Below, piece after piece: positions 53,141 through 63,482 of a DNA stretch of 64,000 bases (the stretch's first letter is position 1; every line of letters starts with the position of its first letter). The notes beneath the pieces were generated by a model. The model ran no database searches. It was not told the origin of the DNA and was given only the letters and a program-made list of their open reading frames with translations. Source of the DNA: Janthinobacterium sp. SUN073 (GTDB taxonomy: Bacteria > Pseudomonadota > Gammaproteobacteria > Burkholderiales > Burkholderiaceae_D); contig NZ_JAPUBT010000004.1 in NCBI RefSeq assembly GCF_030397665.1, positions 248,001 through 312,000 of the forward strand, in the 5' to 3' direction. The translations under genes and the position numbers were made by a program.

Positions 53141-54397
53141 CTATTCCACCTGGCGAGCCAGGCGGATGCCGGAAAATTGCCAGCGCGCACCAGCAGGAAA
53201 GAAATTGCGGTAGCTGGCGCGCGCATGGCCGGCCGGCGTGGCGCACGACGAGCCGCGCAGCACATACTGGTTCAGCATGAACTTGCCGTTGTATTCACCC
53301 AGCGCCCCGGGCGCCGTGCGGTAGCCGGGATACGGCGCATAGCTGCTGCTGGTCCACTGCCAGCAGTGCCCGAACATTTGCCGCAGTCCCGCTCCCGGCG
53401 CACCGGCGGCAGGATTCAACTGCCCCACTTCCACGGCGACGCCTTGCGCCGCTACTTCCCATTCGGCTTCCGTCGGCAGGCGCGCGCCAGCCCAATGCGC
53501 ATACGCGTCCGCCTCGAACAGCGACAAGTGCGTGGCTGGCGCCTGCGGGTCCAGCGCGCGCAAGCCGAATAAAGTGAATTCCTGCCAGTGGCCCGCCTCG
53601 TCGCACTGCCAATACAGCGGGCATGCCAGCTGTTGCGTGCGGACCCAGTCCCAGCCTTCGGCTAGCCACAGGTGGGCCGTGCGGTAACCGCCCGCCTCGA
53701 TGAAGGCGAGAAATTCGCCATTCGTCACCAGTGCAGTGGCCAGCTCGAACGGCGCCACGTACTGCGGATGGCGCGGCAATTCATTGTCGAAGCAAAAACC
53801 ATCGCCCGCATGGCCGATCTGCGCCAGGCCGCCGTCGAAGGCGAGCCACGCCGTGGGCTGCGCGTGTTCTTGCGCTGGCGCCACCGCGCTGGCCAGCGCA
53901 TTGTTCAGCGCATTGTCCATGTAAGCGGGAAACAGGGCGCTCTGCGCCAGCAAGTGTTTCACGTCCGTCAACAGCAACTCCTGGTGCTGCTGCTCGTGTT
54001 CGAGCCCCAGCGCCAGCAGCATGGTCAGCCGTTCGCGCTCGGGACGCGCCAGCTCACTGGCCAGCAGCCGGCCGATGCGCGCATCGACATCGATCCGGTA
54101 GGCGCGCACTTGCGCCATGCCGGGGCGCGTCAGCAAGCCCCGCTGGGCGCGCGGATGCTTCTCGCCCACCCCGTTGTAGTAGGAATTGAACAGCACGCGG
54201 AAGGCGGGGTGGAACGGCATGAACGCCGCTTCCATGCTTTCCAGAATAAACGTTTCGAAAAACCAGGTGGTATGCGCCAGATGCCATTTCACGGGACTGG
54301 CGTCCGGCATCGACTGGGCCCCGCAATCCTCGTCGGACAGGGGCTCGGCCAGCAGCAGAGAATACTGGCGCACTTGATGGTAATGATCGATCAGCAT
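53141..54397 (-). CDS. egtB: Ergothioneine biosynthesis sulfoxide synthase EgtB
   Basis: 418 residues. A non-haem iron enzyme joining hercynine with a thiol (gamma-Glu-Cys or Cys) and O2 to the sulfoxide intermediate of ergothioneine. The N-terminal DinB-like domain supplies the iron histidines (KWHLAHTTWFFE, LEHEQQHQELL). The C-terminal FGE-sulfatase-like domain has RLPTEAEWEVAAQG, FGHCWQWTSSSYAPYPGY and VLRGSSCATP. It follows egtD by nine bases on the same strand. No egtC or egtE homologue adjoins, so the C-S lyase step is encoded elsewhere. Confidence 0.95.
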   Translation of the reverse strand: MLIDHYHQVRQYSLLLAEPLSDEDCGAQSMPDASPVKWHLAHTTWFFETFILESMEAAFMPFHPAFRVLFNSYYNGVGEKHPRAQRGLLTRPGMAQVRAYRIDVDARIGRLLASELARPERERLTMLLALGLEHEQQHQELLLTDVKHLLAQSALFPAYMDNALNNALASAVAPAQEHAQPTAWLAFDGGLAQIGHAGDGFCFDNELPRHPQYVAPFELATALVTNGEFLAFIEAGGYRTAHLWLAEGWDWVRTQQLACPLYWQCDEAGHWQEFTLFGLRALDPQAPATHLSLFEADAYAHWAGARLPTEAEWEVAAQGVAVEVGQLNPAAGAPGAGLRQMFGHCWQWTSSSYAPYPGYRTAPGALGEYNGKFMLNQYVLRGSSCATPAGHARASYRNFFPAGARWQFSGIRLARQVE

Positions 54398-54406
54398 CGT
54401 CGCCTT

Positions 54407-55399
54407 TTAGTCTCGAATAACGCGTGCGTAAATGACGGCAAACCACTGCTGCGGGTCCGTCCAGACTTGCACGGTGGAAAACCCCGCCTGCTCCAGCAAG
54501 CCGACGAAACTTGCACGGGTGTATTTGTAGCTGTCTTCTGTATGGATGCGTTCGCCTTTCGCGAAACGCCGCTGGCCACCTTTCCAACGGACAACTTGTT
54601 CGCTGCGCGCTTCCAGGTGCATTTCGACGCGGCGCTCTTCGGCGTTGAAAAAGCCGTGGTGCCGCCACGCACGCACGTCGAAGTCCGCGCCGATCAGGCC
54701 GTTCACATGGCGCAGCATGTTCAGGTTGAAGGCGGCCGTGACGCCCAGCGCATCGTCATAGGCGGCGTCGAGGATGGCATCGTCCTTGATCAGGTCGACG
54801 CCGATCAGCAAGCCGCCATCGCCGTCCGCATTCGCGCGCAGGCGGCGCAAAAAGGCGGTTGCTTGTTCAGGCGCAAAATTGCCGATCGACGAGCCGGGAT
54901 AGAAGAACAGGCGCCGCGCCTCGCGCACGCTGTCGGGCAAGTCCAGGCGGCTGGAGAAATCCAGGCCCAGGCCCGTCATCTCGATGTGCGGAAAGCGCTG
55001 CTGCAGCCGGCTCAGCGATTCACTGAGGAAATCATAGGAAATATCCACGGCCACATACTGGGCCGGATGCAGCAGGGGGAACAGGCTGGCGGCCTTGGCG
55101 CAATTGCCCGCACCGAGGTCGATCAGGGTGCTGCCCGGCCCCACGGCGTGCGCGATCTCGGCGCCGTGACGGGCGAAGATGGCCGACTCGGTGCGCGTCG
55201 GATAGTACTCGGGCAAGGCGCAAATGGCTTCGAACAGTTTCGAGCCCAGCGCGTCATACAGGTACTTGGGCGAGGTCCAGGCCTCGCGCGCCAGCAGGCC
55301 GCTGCTGATCTCGACTATCGTGGCAGGAGTGGCGCTGGCCACTCGGACGTTGCTGGCGGGAGACAAATCTGACTGCTGTTGCGCGAGTGGCATGGTCAT
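54407..55399 (-). CDS. egtD: L-histidine N-alpha-methyltransferase EgtD
   Basis: 330 residues from the ATG at 55399; a GTG at 55426 would add nine residues and neither has a clear RBS. SAM-dependent trimethylation of histidine to hercynine, the first ergothioneine step. Family features: YFPTRTE-like LPEYYPTRTESAIFARHG, the SAM site LIDLGAGNCAKAASL, and FFYPGSSIGNFAPEQA. It forms a two-gene operon with egtB. Confidence 0.95.
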   Translation of the reverse strand: MTMPLAQQQSDLSPASNVRVASATPATIVEISSGLLAREAWTSPKYLYDALGSKLFEAICALPEYYPTRTESAIFARHGAEIAHAVGPGSTLIDLGAGNCAKAASLFPLLHPAQYVAVDISYDFLSESLSRLQQRFPHIEMTGLGLDFSSRLDLPDSVREARRLFFYPGSSIGNFAPEQATAFLRRLRANADGDGGLLIGVDLIKDDAILDAAYDDALGVTAAFNLNMLRHVNGLIGADFDVRAWRHHGFFNAEERRVEMHLEARSEQVVRWKGGQRRFAKGERIHTEDSYKYTRASFVGLLEQAGFSTVQVWTDPQQWFAVIYARVIRD

Positions 55400-55597
55400 G
55401 GGCTGGCGTCGTCTATCAAGGTTCACGAAGGGCTTGCACGGTCAGCCACCGGGCGCCGCCCCTGCCATAGCGGTGTGCGGGCGCCTTTTCCGATGACTTT
55501 TTTCCATCATAGCGGAATCCGCACAAGCCAGCCGTGCGACAGGTAACTTAAGCTCAAACGAGCAGTACGTACACAAAATGGGTATTGCCCAGCAAAA

Positions 55598-56581: not shown

Positions 56582-56869
56582 ATGAACGTTCGGCAAAAGA
56601 AGCTGGAAATGATTGAAGCGATGAACCGGGCGCGTGCGCTCGAACCATCGAGTTTTGTGCCCAACAAGCTGCTCGATACCCTGATCGAGAAGATGAACCT
56701 GAAAAATGATGCGGAACTGTGCCGTGTTCTGGAAGTCCAGCCTCCCATCATCAGCAAGATTCGTCACGGCAAACTGTCGGTCGGTGCAACGATTTTATTG
56801 CGCATGCATGAAAAATCGGACATCACCATCCGCGAACTGAAGGAACTGTCCGCCACGCCAGTCCACTGA
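56582..56869 (+). CDS. Small helix-turn-helix (Cro/XRE-like) protein
   Basis: 95 residues. The core NDAELCRVLEVQPPIISKIR followed by HGKLSVGATILLRMHEKSD fits an XRE/Cro-type helix-turn-helix. It has a consensus RBS (AAGGAGGAGTAA) and, just upstream, a GACCAC/GTGGTC hairpin with a five-base loop (56534-56550). It lies 180 bp after the orphan ATPase and 280 bp before the CHAT gene, all on one strand. Linkage to either is not shown. Confidence 0.75.
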   Translation: MNVRQKKLEMIEAMNRARALEPSSFVPNKLLDTLIEKMNLKNDAELCRVLEVQPPIISKIRHGKLSVGATILLRMHEKSDITIRELKELSATPVH

Positions 56870-57151: not shown

Positions 57152-60100
57152 ATGTCCAGCGACCCTCTTGCGCCGCCCGTGCTGCGTCTGACGCTCACGC
57201 GCGATCCCCTCGCCGACGCCGGGGACTGCCCCGCCGCGCCCGGCTGGCACAGCGAGACCCACGTGCTGTCGGGCGCGCGCGGCATCGGCAGTTGCCGCAC
57301 GGCACTCGATATCGGTCCGGCCGACGTGGTGCAGCTGCTGTTGTGCGACGGCAGTTCACTGCTGGCGAGCAGCCTGGACCTGCCACGCTACCTGGGGCCG
57401 GTCATGGCGGCACGCGACGACGCGCCCGCCAGCATCGAAGTGGGGCTGGCCTTGCGCCCGCAGGCGGCGCGCCCGCCGCCCGGCGCCAGCCGCGACGGCC
57501 TGGGCGCCTGGATGCTGCGGGCCGTGCGCGTGTACCGCTGCGGCGCCGCCGCCATGACTGCGCTGGCGGCGGCGGGCGCCTTCCAGGACCGCCAGCTGGA
57601 ACAGCGCCTGGGCCTGTACCGCTGCGGCATCGAAGCGGGCAGCATGACGTCCGTCGCCAGCGTGCCCGCCGGGCCGGAACCGGTGCTGCTGCTGTTGCAC
57701 GGCACGGCGTCGTCGACCCAGCGCAGCTTTGGCGGCCTGTGGCGCAATGGCCTGGCGCCGCAGCTGGTGGCGCAATACGGCAACCGCATCTACGGCTACG
57801 AGCACCGCAGCCTCAGCGAAAGCCCCATCGAGAACGCGCTGGCGCTCGTGCGCCAGCTGCCGCACGGCGCCGTGCTGCACCTGCTGGCCCATTCGCGCGG
57901 CGGCCTGGTGGGCGAATTGCTGGCGCGCGCGCAGCGCATCGACAGCCGCGGCGCCGTCGACCTGGCTGGCGACGGCCTGGAACGGCTGAGCGAAAACACG
58001 GTAGGCGGCGAAGCGTTCAACAGCCACGATATCGGGCACTTCACGGCGCAGGCACGGCTGGGCGCACGCGCCGGCCACGACGCGGATGCGGCGCGCCTGC
58101 GCGAACTGGGCGAGGAGTTGAAGACGCGCGCCATCCGCATCGCCCGCTTCGTGCGCGTGGCCTGCCCGGCGCGCGGCACCACCTTGATGTCGGGCCGGCT
58201 CGACCGCTGGGCCAGCGTGATGTGCAACCTGCTGCCGCAGGACGATGTGCCCGATGGCGGCATGGCCTTCCTGCTGGCCGTGGTGCGGCAGCGCTGCGAC
58301 GCGCGCATCCTGCCGGGCCTGGAAGCGATGATGCCCGACTCGCCCCTGGTGGCGCTGCTCAACGCGCCCGACGTGCGCGTGGCCAGCCCGCTGCACGTGC
58401 TGGCCGGCGCGTGCAGCGGCGATGGCTTGCTGGGCTGGCTGGGCGACTGCCTCGGCGACCAGCTGTACGGCGGCCAGAACGACCTGGTGGTCAACTGCGC
58501 CTCGATGGCGGGCGGCGCCACGCGCAGCACGCCGGTACGGCAACTGCTGCTGCGCGGGCCGCAGACGCACCACCTGAACTACTTCGAGCGCGCACCGTCC
58601 GGCCTGGCGGCAGTGCAGGCGCTCACGGGCGACGACAGCGCCTACCAGCCGCTGGCCGGCATCGAGCACGGCGCGCTGGGACGCGGCGGCGAAGTGCCGA
58701 AGCGGCGCGCGCACGCTCCCATCGTGCTGCTGCTGCCCGACATCATGGGCAGCCATCTGCAAGTGGGCAGCAACCGCATCTGGTTCGACCCCGTCAACCT
58801 GGTCGAAGGGCGCATCGAGCGCCTGGCCGTGGGCCAGCCACACATCGTCAGCGCCGGCTGGGTCGAATCCTGCTATGAACCGTTTGCCCGCTTTCTCGCG
58901 CAAAGCCAGGAAGTGCGGCCCTTTACGTATGACTGGCGTTTGTCGCTGCAGCACTCCGGCAACGCCTTCCTGCCCGTGCTGGACGAGGCCATGCGCGACG
59001 CCGAACAGCGCGGACAACCTTTGCGCATCCTTGCCCACGGCACGGGCGGGCTGGTGGCGCGCCTGGCATTGAAGGACCGCTGGCAGCGCTTCGGCGCCCT
59101 GCCCGGCAGTCGCCTGCTGCAGGTAGGCACGGCCAACCGGGGCACGCAAGCGATGGTGCAAGTGCTGCTGGGACGCGATCCGCTGGTGCGGATGCTGGCC
59201 TGCTGGATAGGCTGGAAGCACACGCGGCGCCAGTTTCTCGGCTTCGTGCGCGCCTTTCCCGGCGTGCTGGACATGCTGCCGTGGCCGCAGCCGCAGCCGC
59301 AGGTGGCCGGCAGCATCGATTATTTCGACAGCGACGCCTGGGCGCAACTGGCCGCCGGCGATGCGCAAGCGGGCCTGCCCGACGGCTGGCAGGCGCCCGA
59401 GGCACCAGCGCTGGCGGCGGCGCGCGCCACCGTGGCCTTGCTGGAGGCCGCCCCGCTCGATGCCCGCCATTGCTGCTACCTGGCCGGGTGCGCCGACACG
59501 CCGGTGGCGCTGCGCCTGCGCGACGGCGGCATCGAGACGGCCTGGTCGCCGGACGGCGATGGCCGCACGGCCTGGCAAGGCGCGGTGCCGGACGGCGTGC
59601 AAGCGTGCTACCTGCCGGTGGCGCATGGCGACCTGCTGCTGCAAAAAGAAACCTACCCGGCCATCGCGCAACTGCTCGAGAACGGCCAGGGCGCAGGCCT
59701 GTCCCGGCGCCCGCCGCACGCGCCGGGCGGCGCCCCGCCGCGCTTCCGTCCATACGCCCCCGATGCGCGGCCGCTGTACCCGCAGCCGCCGGAACTGCTC
59801 GACGCCGCCCTCGGCGCCGCCGGCCCCGCCAGCACGCCGGAGGTCTGCGCGCCGCAGCTGAGCCTATCCGTCATCCACGGCAGCATGGCCTCGGCCGACG
59901 CGCCCGTCATGAGCGGCTGCTACGCGTATGAATCGCTGCGCGGCAGCATGAGTTTTCTCGACCGCCTGCTGGCGGGCAAGCTGCAGGAAATCCACGCGCT
60001 GGGGCGCTTCCCGCAGCGTCCCGACTCTGCCCTGGTGGTGCTGCAACCCGATGCCGCGCGCCGGCCCGGCGGCGCCATCGTCATCGGCCTGGGCGCGCTG

Positions 60101-62635
60101 GGCGAACTGACGCCGGGCGAACTGGCGCGCGCCTTTGCCGGCGGCCTGCTCGAATACGCCTGCGTCTGTCTGCAGGTGCGCGCCGCCGGCCATGCGGCTG
60201 CGCCGCCGATGGGCGCACACGGCTTGCGCGTGGCCAGCCTGTTGTCCGGTTCCGGCTATGGCGGCTTGAGCATCGCCCTGTGCGCGCGGGCCCTGATCGA
60301 TGGCGTGCGCAGCGCCAACCGGCGCCTGGAAGACGCGGGCATGGCCTGCCGCATCGGCCACATCGCCATCTATGAACAATCCGAGGCGCGCGCCATCGCC
60401 GCCGCCGTGGCCATCGAGCAGATCATGGCCGAGGCGCGCTACCAGGGCAGCTTCACGTTCGAGCGGCGCATCCGCCACAGCCCGGGCGGCTACCGGCGCA
60501 TCTTGCCCAGCCTGAGCGGCGACAATGGCTGGCGCCGCGTGCAGATCGTCGCCGCGGACCTCTCCGGCGCCCTGCGCTTCACCGTGCTGACGGACCGCGC
60601 CCACAACAGCGTCGACGAGGAGCCGAACCAGCGCCAGGCCGTCGATGGCCTGATCATGGACGCCACCGACAACACCACCGACCAGCCGGGCCTGTCGCGC
60701 GCGCTGTACGAACTGATGCTGCCCAATGGCCTCAAGGCGGCCATCCCCGAGATGCGCGGCCTGATCCTGGCCGTCGACCAGAGTGCCGCCATCTATCCGT
60801 GGGAGCTGATGCGCGACGAGGCGGGCAGCGAGGAAAGCCCGCTGTCGACGCGCATCGGCATGGTGCGCCAGCTGGCCAGCCTGCGCGAGCAGCCGCCCGC
60901 CACCAGCCCGCCCAGCAACAGCGTGCTGGTGATCGGCGACACCGATTCCGGCCTGCCCGAGCTGCCCGCCGCGCAGGCCGAGGCGCAGGACGTGGCGCGC
61001 ATGTTCCGCGCCTACGGCTACCAGGTGCGCGAGCTGCTGCGCCCGCACGCGCAGCGCGTGCTGGTGCACCTGTTCGACGAGCGCTATTTCGCCATCCACC
61101 TGGCCGGCCACGGCGAAGTGGCCGGCCCCGGCATCGCGCATACGGGCCTGGTGCTGGGACCGAAGACGCGGCTGACGGCGGCGCAGGTGGGCAAGCTGAA
61201 ACGCGTGCCGCAATTCGTCTTCATCAATTGCTGCCACCTGGGCGACATGCGCCCGGACGCCATCGCGCCGTGGTCGAAACTGGCCGCCAGCCTGGCCACG
61301 GCCTTCATTGAAATGGGCTCGCAGGCGGTCATCGCGGCCGGCTGGCGCATCGACGATCAGGCGGCCAGCATCTTCGCGCACAGCTTTTATCACGCCATGC
61401 TGAGCGGCGAATACTTCGGCGACGCCGTGCGCCTGGCGCGCGAGGCGGCGTACCTGCAGTTCCCGGCGTCGAATACCTGGGGCGCCTACCAGGCGTATGG
61501 CGACGACCGCTACCGTTTCCCGAATACCCAGAGCCGGCCCTGGCAGGCGCCCGACTATCACTACCACGGCCACCTGCTGGCCGACCTGGAAACCCTGCAT
61601 GCGCGCCTGGCGGGCGCCGATCCTGCGCGCCGCGCCGCCATCGAGGAAAAGCTGGCCAGCATCGAGCAAGCCGTGCGCGCGCGCTTCTTCGGCTGCGCCG
61701 ACATCCGCGAAAACATGGCCGCCACGCGCGCCGGCCTGGGGGGACTGGAGAACACCCTGCGCGCCATCGAACACTACCGGGCGGCGCACAGCGCGGCCGA
61801 CGGCAAGGTGGGTTTGCGCGCGCTGGCGCATTGGGCGGAATTGGAGATACGCCAGGGCGCGGCCCTGTGCGGCATCGATGCGGGCGCCGGCATCGAGGTG
61901 CCCGTCGTGCCGGATATGGCGCAGGGACGGCAATTGCTGCAGGATGGAAAACAGCATATCGACCTGCTGGTGGCGCTGGCGCCCACGGCGCAGCGCCTGG
62001 CCCTGCTGGGACGCTACTGGGCCTTGCAGGCACGCCTGGCCTGCGCCGAAGGCCATTCCGGCACGCCGGCGCTGCGCGCCATGACCGATGCCTGCCTGGG
62101 GGCGCTGGACGAAGCGCGGCGGCGCAGCGGCGTGGCCGACTGCGACCTGATTTTCCAGGTGCTGGCGGGCGCCCTGCTGTTGAAAGCCCATGGCGACGGC
62201 GACGCCTGGCGCGCACTCGATGCGCAACTGGGCGACTTGCTGCACGACGCCATCACCTATGCGCGCCAGCGCCACGCGGACGAACACCGCGCCATCGACG
62301 CCGGCGCCCCCGTGCGCGCCGCCCTGCTGGCGGCCCTGTGGCAAGTGCCGGACGGCCAGCCCTTCGACGCGCCCGCGCGCGCCGCCTTCCTGGCCTTGTA
62401 CCACGACGCCGTGCGGCGCCATGGCAGCATCGGCGAACCCGAAGCGATCACCGTGCCGCTGCGCTTCCTGCTCGAACTGCTGCCGCCCGACAGCGCGCAG
62501 ACCGGCTTGCGCAGCGCCGTGCAGGCGCTGGCCAGCCAGTTGCAGGCCTCACTCCCCGGCATTAACCTTAGCCAGGCACCACGCCGTAGTGGCGCGCATA
62601 GCGCTCGTCCAGATTCGCCAGCGGCATCATCATGA
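57152..62635 (+). CDS. Giant hydrolase-CHAT protease fusion protein
   Basis: 1827 residues, no signal peptide. Region 1 (~175-500) is an alpha/beta-hydrolase with oxyanion HGTASS (His183) and elbow AHSRGG (Ser248). Region 2 (~525-740) is LCAT-like (LPDIMGSHLQVGSNRIWFDP), but its elbow reads AHGTGG with Thr631 in place of Ser. Residues ~904-1015 (HGSM, PVMSGCYAYESL, GGAIVIGLGALGELTPGEL) are a block I have seen in other large CHAT proteins. A CHAT caspase-like protease (~1200-1460) has His1320 (LAGHGE) and Cys1361 (FINCCHLGD). The last ~360 residues are helical. It is probably a regulated protease or defence/cell-death protein; targets unknown. Its 3' end overlaps the convergent olsB-like gene by 68 bp. 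Confidence 0.85.
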   Translation: MSSDPLAPPVLRLTLTRDPLADAGDCPAAPGWHSETHVLSGARGIGSCRTALDIGPADVVQLLLCDGSSLLASSLDLPRYLGPVMAARDDAPASIEVGLALRPQAARPPPGASRDGLGAWMLRAVRVYRCGAAAMTALAAAGAFQDRQLEQRLGLYRCGIEAGSMTSVASVPAGPEPVLLLLHGTASSTQRSFGGLWRNGLAPQLVAQYGNRIYGYEHRSLSESPIENALALVRQLPHGAVLHLLAHSRGGLVGELLARAQRIDSRGAVDLAGDGLERLSENTVGGEAFNSHDIGHFTAQARLGARAGHDADAARLRELGEELKTRAIRIARFVRVACPARGTTLMSGRLDRWASVMCNLLPQDDVPDGGMAFLLAVVRQRCDARILPGLEAMMPDSPLVALLNAPDVRVASPLHVLAGACSGDGLLGWLGDCLGDQLYGGQNDLVVNCASMAGGATRSTPVRQLLLRGPQTHHLNYFERAPSGLAAVQALTGDDSAYQPLAGIEHGALGRGGEVPKRRAHAPIVLLLPDIMGSHLQVGSNRIWFDPVNLVEGRIERLAVGQPHIVSAGWVESCYEPFARFLAQSQEVRPFTYDWRLSLQHSGNAFLPVLDEAMRDAEQRGQPLRILAHGTGGLVARLALKDRWQRFGALPGSRLLQVGTANRGTQAMVQVLLGRDPLVRMLACWIGWKHTRRQFLGFVRAFPGVLDMLPWPQPQPQVAGSIDYFDSDAWAQLAAGDAQAGLPDGWQAPEAPALAAARATVALLEAAPLDARHCCYLAGCADTPVALRLRDGGIETAWSPDGDGRTAWQGAVPDGVQACYLPVAHGDLLLQKETYPAIAQLLENGQGAGLSRRPPHAPGGAPPRFRPYAPDARPLYPQPPELLDAALGAAGPASTPEVCAPQLSLSVIHGSMASADAPVMSGCYAYESLRGSMSFLDRLLAGKLQEIHALGRFPQRPDSALVVLQPDAARRPGGAIVIGLGALGELTPGELARAFAGGLLEYACVCLQVRAAGHAAAPPMGAHGLRVASLLSGSGYGGLSIALCARALIDGVRSANRRLEDAGMACRIGHIAIYEQSEARAIAAAVAIEQIMAEARYQGSFTFERRIRHSPGGYRRILPSLSGDNGWRRVQIVAADLSGALRFTVLTDRAHNSVDEEPNQRQAVDGLIMDATDNTTDQPGLSRALYELMLPNGLKAAIPEMRGLILAVDQSAAIYPWELMRDEAGSEESPLSTRIGMVRQLASLREQPPATSPPSNSVLVIGDTDSGLPELPAAQAEAQDVARMFRAYGYQVRELLRPHAQRVLVHLFDERYFAIHLAGHGEVAGPGIAHTGLVLGPKTRLTAAQVGKLKRVPQFVFINCCHLGDMRPDAIAPWSKLAASLATAFIEMGSQAVIAAGWRIDDQAASIFAHSFYHAMLSGEYFGDAVRLAREAAYLQFPASNTWGAYQAYGDDRYRFPNTQSRPWQAPDYHYHGHLLADLETLHARLAGADPARRAAIEEKLASIEQAVRARFFGCADIRENMAATRAGLGGLENTLRAIEHYRAAHSAADGKVGLRALAHWAELEIRQGAALCGIDAGAGIEVPVVPDMAQGRQLLQDGKQHIDLLVALAPTAQRLALLGRYWALQARLACAEGHSGTPALRAMTDACLGALDEARRRSGVADCDLIFQVLAGALLLKAHGDGDAWRALDAQLGDLLHDAITYARQRHADEHRAIDAGAPVRAALLAALWQVPDGQPFDAPARAAFLALYHDAVRRHGSIGEPEAITVPLRFLLELLPPDSAQTGLRSAVQALASQLQASLPGINLSQAPRRSGAHSARPDSPAASS

Positions 62636-63329
62636 ACATGTCGGCGCTTTCGAAATCAGGGTCCCACGCCGGTTCGCCGCAAATCCAGGCCCCCGAACGC
62701 AGATAGCCCTTGATCAGCGGCGGCACTTGCGGCTTGTGCGCCGCTTCCACCTGGTGGATGGGGAAAGGCAGGTGCGGCGTGACGCGGTATTCGCTTGGGG
62801 CCATGTGCTTTTCGGCCAGCGCCTGGTACACGGCAACGGCGTTATGCCCGCCATCGGCCAGGCTGATGCTGGCGCAGCCGACCAGGTAGTCGCAGCGCTC
62901 GCGGCGCATGTACTCGGCCAGGCCCGACCACAGCAGCATGATCACGCTGCCGCCCCGGTACTTGGGATGGATGCAGGCACGGCCCGCTTCGACCATGCGT
63001 CCGCGCAGGTTCTTCAGGCGGCTCAGGTCGAACTCGTTTTCCGCATACAGCCGGCCGATCTTGGCCGCCTTGGCCGCGCTCAGCACGCGGTAAGTGCCCA
63101 CCACTTTCAGGGTATCGGCATCGCGCACGATCAGATGATCGCAATGCGCGTCGAACTCATCGCTGTCGAGGCCATCGGCATTCGCCAGCGAGCTCAATCC
63201 CATGGCCTCGATAAACACCTTGTAACGCAAACGCTGGACTTCGCGCAATTCCGCCGCGGTAGTGGCCTGGCTCAGCACCAGTTGGACCGGCCGGGCCTTG
63301 GCTTCGTTTGATGCGACTATGTTCTGCAT
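62568..63329 (-). CDS. olsB: OlsB-type ornithine N-acyltransferase (GNAT/hemolysin-like)
   Basis: 253 residues from the ATG at 63329, after GGGGATGAAACC. PF13444-type acyltransferase features: EVQRLRYKVFIEAMG, FDAHCDHLIVRDAD, VVGTYRVLSAAKA, EAGRACIHPKYRGGSVIMLL, CDYLVGCASISLADGG. OlsB transfers a 3-hydroxyacyl chain from ACP to ornithine to form lyso-ornithine lipid; OlsA would finish the lipid but is not in the window. The alternative is another GNAT making N-acyl amino acids. The upstream in-frame extension to 63452 is rejected. Confidence 0.82.
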   Translation of the reverse strand: MQNIVASNEAKARPVQLVLSQATTAAELREVQRLRYKVFIEAMGLSSLANADGLDSDEFDAHCDHLIVRDADTLKVVGTYRVLSAAKAAKIGRLYAENEFDLSRLKNLRGRMVEAGRACIHPKYRGGSVIMLLWSGLAEYMRRERCDYLVGCASISLADGGHNAVAVYQALAEKHMAPSEYRVTPHLPFPIHQVEAAHKPQVPPLIKGYLRSGAWICGEPAWDPDFESADMFMMMPLANLDERYARHYGVVPG

Positions 63330-63482
63330 GGTTTCATCCCCTGTGATCAAGACGACTCCAGCGTACTTGTCTAATATGTCAGGAAAATGACAGCCGAATG
63401 TCATTTCCATGACGCAAGTCAATGTCAGGGGAAGAGCGTGCGCATTTACCACACTCGCCGGCGCCGTCAGTGAAAACGCCGC

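Follow-up and report, generated by a model that had tools for sequence, protein, structure and literature searches.

Two lipase-type hydrolases and a CHAT protease in one chain: a probable intracellular conflict protein of Janthinobacterium

The pairing of caspase-like proteases with hydrolases is known from the VMAP ternary systems, in which, according to the excerpted text of Kaur 2020 (PMC7159879), a caspase-superfamily domain is always accompanied by a neighbouring alpha/beta-hydrolase gene, and the caspase/hydrolase pairing and a trypsin pairing are mutually exclusive. Here we describe a gene of Janthinobacterium sp. SUN073 that unites such components in a single polypeptide. It lies at 57152..62635 on the + strand of a 64,000-nucleotide stretch (positions 248,001 to 312,000 of contig NZ_JAPUBT010000004.1, called the window below), reads from ATG to stop and encodes 1827 residues; its reality as a gene is supported by the open reading frame (ORF), by full-length homologues and by the ratio of nonsynonymous to synonymous substitution rates (dN/dS). 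Because several relatives adjoin, or are fused to, caspase or TIR modules, the product is probably an as yet uncharacterised protein of self-defence or cell death. With the VMAP ternary systems, as excerpted, it shares the combination of a caspase-superfamily protease with an alpha/beta-hydrolase and the existence of a trypsin alternative, which in this family is L118:7839-10361, where a trypsin-like protease takes the place of CHAT in a fusion with an LCAT/PGAP1-like hydrolase. In the excerpted VMAP systems, however, the hydrolase has a gene of its own in the neighbourhood, accompanied by vWA and MoxR partners, whereas here protease and hydrolases form one chain. By analogy with that description, the family looks like a fused version of the VMAP caspase-hydrolase logic, with L118 as the trypsin counterpart.

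Other described systems share smaller parts of the architecture. The excerpted portion of one review gives Borvo and type III-E CRISPR as systems with CHAT and counts Borvo, whose BovA is a CHAT protease like that of the window protein, as a defence system (PMC10952713). The PADLOC BovA model matches the window protein over 158 of its 711 positions (507-664), in the CHAT part only, with an E-value of 2.5e-4. Craspase TPR-CHAT/Csx29 of type III-E CRISPR is a fold neighbour of the CHAT domain, but its TPRs precede CHAT, whereas TPR-S-like helices follow CHAT here, and the window protein adds a macro-fold domain and two hydrolases. Macro-domain Thoeris effectors, in the excerpted account of PMC11204291, bind ADP-ribose-type nucleotides that the TIR partner can make. 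The window family resembles the effector ThsA of that account in having a macro fold in a protein paired with TIR proteins; ThsA has transmembrane helices, whereas the window protein carries a protease and lipases with no predicted transmembrane helix, and its macro domain is by sequence of the M17-N type. A fungal TPR-bearing CHAT protease is described, again in an excerpt, as activating a gasdermin (PMC12881547). None of these VMAP, Thoeris, Borvo/type III-E CRISPR and fungal CHAT systems, as the excerpts describe them, has the present chain. Full-text literature searches, with partial listings that do not prove absence, returned no paper on the twin-hydrolase and CHAT combination, and the full texts searched contained no mention of DUF7379.

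From its gene neighbours, TIR fusions, distribution and TPR-S/CHAT combination, we regard the window protein with good confidence as a conflict protein. With somewhat more reserve, we read it as an intracellular one, most likely of the abortive-infection or cell-death type, in which a gated CHAT protease probably controls, or acts beside, the lipase arms.

Pfam identifies two domains in the window protein, DUF7379 (best stretch 179-261) and CHAT (1182-1451); the others were resolved from alignments of the family together with two AlphaFold models, which were made from 46 and 45 rows and have mean predicted local distance difference test scores of 83.9 and 84.3. A phmmer search of the PDB with the single window sequence found no match, and no membrane segment is predicted in the protein (maximum 19-residue Kyte-Doolittle mean 1.61). 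Conservation is counted in a 95-row alignment that includes one exact duplicate (g_L027 = L062) and one near-duplicate pair (L114, L120). The N-terminal small domain (residues 1-149; 57152..57598) consists chiefly of strands in the AlphaFold model, and Pfam scans of the whole protein and of the family alignment gave no match to it and no named relative. Alpha/beta-hydrolase 1 (residues 150-500; 57599..58651) contains DUF7379, which was matched in all 46 family rows. In the model its Ser248 (codon 57893..57895), Asp444 and His474 each follow predicted strands in the usual order; Ser248 is found in 90 of 95 rows (one Gly and four gaps, so 90/91 ungapped) and Asp444 in 92/92 ungapped rows. The fold search does not list hydrolase 1 because matches to hydrolase 2 fill the list; the putative fold of hydrolase 1 is assigned from the order of its strands, the DUF7379 match and an hhalign comparison that gives homology with hydrolase 2 a probability of 94 %.

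Alpha/beta-hydrolase 2 (residues ~515-848; 58694..59695) is closest in the fold search to lysosomal PLA2, followed by LCAT, Tle4 and PlaB. It differs from these lipases in being part of a multidomain protein and in the residue at its nucleophile position, which is Gly630 in the window protein (codon 59039..59041) and Ser in most relatives; Asp803 and His825 are kept. The window hydrolase thus has the fold of lysosomal PLA2/LCAT but lacks their Ser-Asp-His triad. The original prediction had recognised a second LCAT-like region with a replaced nucleophile, which holds; its choice of Thr631 is ruled out, as the family alignment and the comparison of the two hydrolases place it one register off. 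Most Janthinobacterium copies have lost the nucleophile of hydrolase 2, while the aligned residues indicate that both hydrolase triads are intact in most of the family.

The macro-fold domain (residues ~900-1097; 59849..60442) has a conserved G[ST]GxGG loop (residues 1033-1038) and in sequence comes closest to the N-terminal family of M17 aminopeptidases: against residues 900-1100 the Peptidase_M17_N profile gives E 0.007 and 16.7 bits in the window protein, under the cut-off of 23.4, and matches 29 of 48 rows at E<=1 (best 8e-9). In two Janthinobacterium genomes without the CHAT gene (G013, G011) there is a stand-alone macro-fold-like frame of ~211-223 residues, with 34 and 31 % identity (L146:4765-5400). 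The CHAT protease domain (PF12770; residues 1181-1452; 60692..61507) scores 96.5 bits against a cut-off of 24, is matched in 45/45 rows at E<=0.01, and is nearest in fold to separase and Csx29/TPR-CHAT. Its catalytic residues His1320 (61109..61111) and Cys1361 (61232..61234) are each present in 94 of 95 rows, the sole exception being the trypsin-fused L118; just before Cys1361, L110 and L119 have Ala in place of Cys1360. The proposal that lipase arms and an intact CHAT protease coexist in one chain is supported by these counts, and the His/Cys pair and the Ser248 elbow are far from being absent in most homologues. The predicted long helical tail is likewise present: residues ~1471-1805 (61562..62566) are modelled with a fold like that of the ASK1 central regulatory region, and Pfam recognises TPR-S in the tails of 40 of 45 rows.

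Between the two halves lies a proline-rich linker (residues 849-899; 59696..59848), delimited by the linker alignments. In its variable, proline-rich surroundings, ~10 residues past the end of the hydrolase 2 fold, 76 of 81 non-Janthinobacterium rows have an Arg (window position 858), and 77 of the 81 have Gly, Ala, Ser or Thr at the next position. The five rows without Arg are g_L031, L088, L090, L093 and L096. This alignment omits L117, L118, L119 and L039, counts g_L031, a divergent same-genus copy, as non-Janthinobacterium, and has a low gap cost, which favours aligning Arg; the independent alignment A3 has the Arg in 46 of 50 rows. The window protein has Pro858, and the 30 Janthinobacterium rows, which contain duplicates (named and unnamed records of one genome), have Pro in 26, Gly in two and Arg in two, both of the latter from one genome, G016. 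On alignment, the Arg could mark a cut site or could have a structural part. Bacterial caspase homologues are reported to cleave after positively charged residues (PMC6426788). An Arg in the linker between the two hydrolases is a weak candidate for a second cut site, as the aligned position holds Arg in 27 of 50 rows.

A profile built from 12 caspases adjoining relatives, searched against 1.78 Mb of locus DNA, gave 20 matches, among which those 12 are found by construction. Eighteen lie directly upstream on the same strand (<=177 nucleotides away, except in L089 and L101, where they overlap a long start) and match the partner-family profile at E<=6e-97; the other two are 670 nucleotides downstream (L044) and 7.8 kilobases (kb) away (L045). 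Nineteen of the 20 (12 of them by construction) thus lie within 700 nucleotides of the gene, against ~7 % under uniform placement. Non-Janthinobacterium loci with at least 700 nucleotides upstream number 69, and 18 of these have the upstream caspase. Pfam, in a tally of 25 of 79 families, finds caspase domains in 12 of 81 operon neighbours, with L076 and L108 seen singly. In the caspase-partnered loci L076:15190-17410, L079, L102 and L108, an M15-type peptidase gene and a ~517-residue protein, without a Pfam match in L076, follow the CHAT gene; M15-type peptidases match 6 of the 81 neighbours, and a match is also seen in L076. In the window's own genome a distant partner caspase is not indicated, as the three caspase-domain places (C32, C12, C1) reach just 22-35 bits against the partner-family profile.

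That CHAT or a caspase frees the lipases we regard as rather less likely than not, and as more doubtful for the Janthinobacterium protein. In the form in which either protease cuts at the linker Arg and releases an active twin phospholipase, the idea is a sub-case of the reading given above and equally uncertain. It accords with the conservation of the Arg and of the following Gly, Ala, Ser or Thr in an otherwise variable linker, and with the caspase-partnered loci, all 18 of which keep the Arg; an alignment of 12 of the caspases shows no variation at the catalytic His and Cys. Yet the site is gone in the window protein and in 28 of 30 Janthinobacterium rows, the Arg is also present in most loci without an adjoining caspase, the segment is modelled with middling confidence, and the Arg may be structural.

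Less likely, in our judgement, is that CHAT is the sole executioner, cleaving the caspase or some other host or partner protein once triggered, with the hydrolase half serving as a sensor, scaffold or lipid-binding anchor. Selection is compatible with such a role: against five close orthologues, dN/dS is 0.17-0.27 overall, 0.05-0.13 in CHAT, 0.04-0.17 in the macro-fold part and 0.18-0.31 in the hydrolases, CHAT being the lowest domain in three comparisons and second to the macro-fold part in the other two. So are the near-invariant His/Cys dyad, the loss of the hydrolase 2 nucleophile and of the linker Arg in most Janthinobacterium copies, the loss of both hydrolase nucleophiles in L021, and relatives that have macro-fold, CHAT and tail without hydrolases. 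One of the latter, L117, lies beside TIR genes; in another (L140:5716-10942) the 739-residue macro-CHAT protein is followed by an overlapping SIR2-NB-ARC frame, and L141 encodes a similar short form of 696 residues with a 303-residue neighbour lacking a Pfam match. The strong conservation of the hydrolase triads elsewhere (Ser248 in all but one of its ungapped rows, Asp444 in every one) argues against it, since binding alone would not need them.

A more elaborate scheme is suggested by TIR domains. Of the 81 operon neighbours, 10 have a Pfam TIR_2 match, and seven TIR neighbours were seen singly. A profile built from those seven, whose loci are found by construction, shows that 16 of 88 loci have a TIR frame on the same strand no more than 1.7 kb away. 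In L058, L061 and L067, the CHAT-hydrolase protein itself ends in a fused TIR domain (2053-2153 residues; own profile, E ~1e-29), and in L055 one lies in another frame just past the gene. The window gene has no TIR gene beside it, its genome's TIR_2 matches being on contigs C3 and C1, not on C29. In this scheme, which we consider unlikely in full detail, a TIR domain in cis or nearby, or a SIR2 protein, would make an ADP-ribose-type signal from NAD+, the macro pocket with its G[ST]GxGG loop would bind it, CHAT and/or the caspase would cut the linker Arg, and the twin phospholipases would destroy the infected cell's membrane; the Janthinobacterium protein would be a simplified, partnerless derivative. 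The fused TIR domains raise the odds of this nucleotide-gated scheme and of the gated-protease reading alike. On a Ruegeria pomeroyi megaplasmid (L119:7461-13358), the gene immediately after that of a DUF7379-CHAT protein encodes an AAA ATPase bearing a SIR2-like domain.

A survey of homologue neighbours, as the original prediction had advised, also yields nSTAND1 (L071, L116), TPR-S (L044), FtsZ-TPR (L045) and patatin (L067) as single cases, with ordinary genes beside other relatives. The lack of an adjoining partner holds in Janthinobacterium, but the suggestion of a single-gene system does not extend to the family, given upstream caspases in 18/69 loci, nearby TIR frames in 16/88 and TIR fusions in three. 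On Paracoccus plasmids, a ~1090-residue protein adjoins the CHAT gene upstream (L114:4343-7627, L115:4342-7617); it has no Pfam match in L115 and is annotated as two genes in L120.

At least 561 relatives are confirmed in genome contigs. The best 80 of them carry the labels Pseudomonadota, Thermodesulfobacteriota, Myxococcota, Nitrospirota, Acidobacteriota, Bacteroidota, Verrucomicrobiota and Chloroflexota; single phylum labels may be wrong because many records are metagenome bins. Among 299 genomes drawn across the phylum, four match at E<=1e-50, the window's own included, and 18 plasmid records have a match, four of these at >=80 % coverage. No match exists among 50,697 phage records or, by the search used, among the viral contigs of IMG/VR, which leaves a phage origin unsupported and is neutral for the conflict reading. 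In a quick tree with long branches, which left out g_L027, g_L028, L118 and L119, the Janthinobacterium rows form an exclusive clade (support 100). L046, labelled Syntrophobacteraceae, nests among Sulfurimicrobium-type copies, which suggests either cross-phylum transfer or a misbinned contig.

Janthinobacterium genomes carry the gene, unaccompanied, at a single fixed site from which it has been lost repeatedly. It is present in 24 of 40 genomes (split by contig ends in three); 21 genus copies match over almost their whole length, although two of these are interrupted by a stop close to the C-terminus. The J. lividum copy L033 is 94 % identical over the full length, and one further genome, G014, has a divergent copy (32 %). 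The site lies between a gene for a 95-residue protein (56582..56869, + strand; weakly HigA-like, below the cut-off) and a GNAT acyltransferase-type gene (62568..63452, - strand), which shares its last 68 bp with the 3′ end of the CHAT gene and marks the site; L036 has several kb of other DNA upstream. For the 16 non-carriers 13 sites were fetched and 12 were readable, and both flanking genes were present in 12/12, which rules out the 95-residue product as an antitoxin or partner, as it occurs there without an intact CHAT gene. Apart from the overlapping 3′ end, remnants of the gene survive in L132, L135, L136, L138 and perhaps L137. In many relatives the first ~37 residues of the GNAT ORF are split off by a frame change or stop; its start may be called too early, or those relatives' copies may differ. 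Both flanks in the genus are housekeeping genes, yet presence in 24/40 genomes and the relics argue against a housekeeping role.

A regulator of lipid metabolism or stress without an immune role, with CHAT in signalling, is improbable in view of the patchy presence, the fixed-site relics, the plasmid copies, the TIR, caspase and STAND neighbours and the TIR fusions. Very improbable is a decaying relic without present function, for although the Janthinobacterium protein has lost the hydrolase 2 nucleophile and the linker Arg, four loci hold relics, and overall dN/dS rises to 0.41 and 0.49 against the more distant L021 and L022, 21 genus copies remain nearly full length and dN/dS, above all in CHAT, is low against the close orthologues.

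The reading of the window protein as a gated cell-death protein draws support from catalytic residues that, on alignment, are conserved in records labelled with eight phyla. In the mechanism that we propose, the C-terminal half (macro-fold, CHAT and TPR-S-like tail) would act as a caspase-like protease under gating: an infection signal or a partner would be received by the macro-fold pocket, by the tail or by both, upon which the CHAT dyad would cut. The N-terminal half would supply two lipase-type hydrolases, most likely attacking membrane lipids, and in most of the family a cut at the conserved linker Arg, by CHAT or a co-encoded caspase, could free them. As the Janthinobacterium protein has lost the hydrolase 2 nucleophile, mostly also the Arg, and has no partner, its outputs would likely be hydrolase 1 and CHAT itself. 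Several observations weigh against this reading. The locus sample, the best 80 relatives plus eight plasmid records, is biased. PADLOC gives a weak, CHAT-only match. The macro-fold domain matches the M17 N-terminal family and not Pfam Macro, so that its ligand binding is putative, and the window's own tail has no Pfam TPR-S match. L021 keeps the CHAT dyad without either hydrolase nucleophile, and the lipases can therefore be dispensable; the linker Arg could be structural. Of the 69 scorable loci, 51 lack an upstream caspase, several neighbours are ordinary (a gyrase subunit, a glycosyltransferase, arginyl-tRNA synthetase, an ABC binding protein), and in the genus the flanks are housekeeping genes with no adjoining partner. 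Overall, the original observations are confirmed in part, and their interpretation is partly supported.

The same genome encodes a second CHAT protein on contig C1 (L142:5618-10494), a TPR-CHAT frame of 1437 residues that overlaps a separate 559-residue caspase-domain ORF starting upstream; it has no tblastn match to the window protein at E<=1e-3. Elsewhere in the window, at 53141-55426, Pfam identifies an FGE-sulfatase/DinB protein paired with a histidine-specific methyltransferase, which are probably the ergothioneine genes egtB/egtD.

If the gated-protease reading is correct, at least 561 bacterial proteins would form a family uniting a protease, a putative ligand sensor and membrane-attacking enzymes in one polypeptide, which gene order or fusion would tie to caspases and TIR domains. 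The targets of bacterial caspases in such operons would become testable, as would the question of whether CHAT acts via a lipase rather than a gasdermin, and the linker Arg together with the three catalytic sites would provide direct mutational handles.
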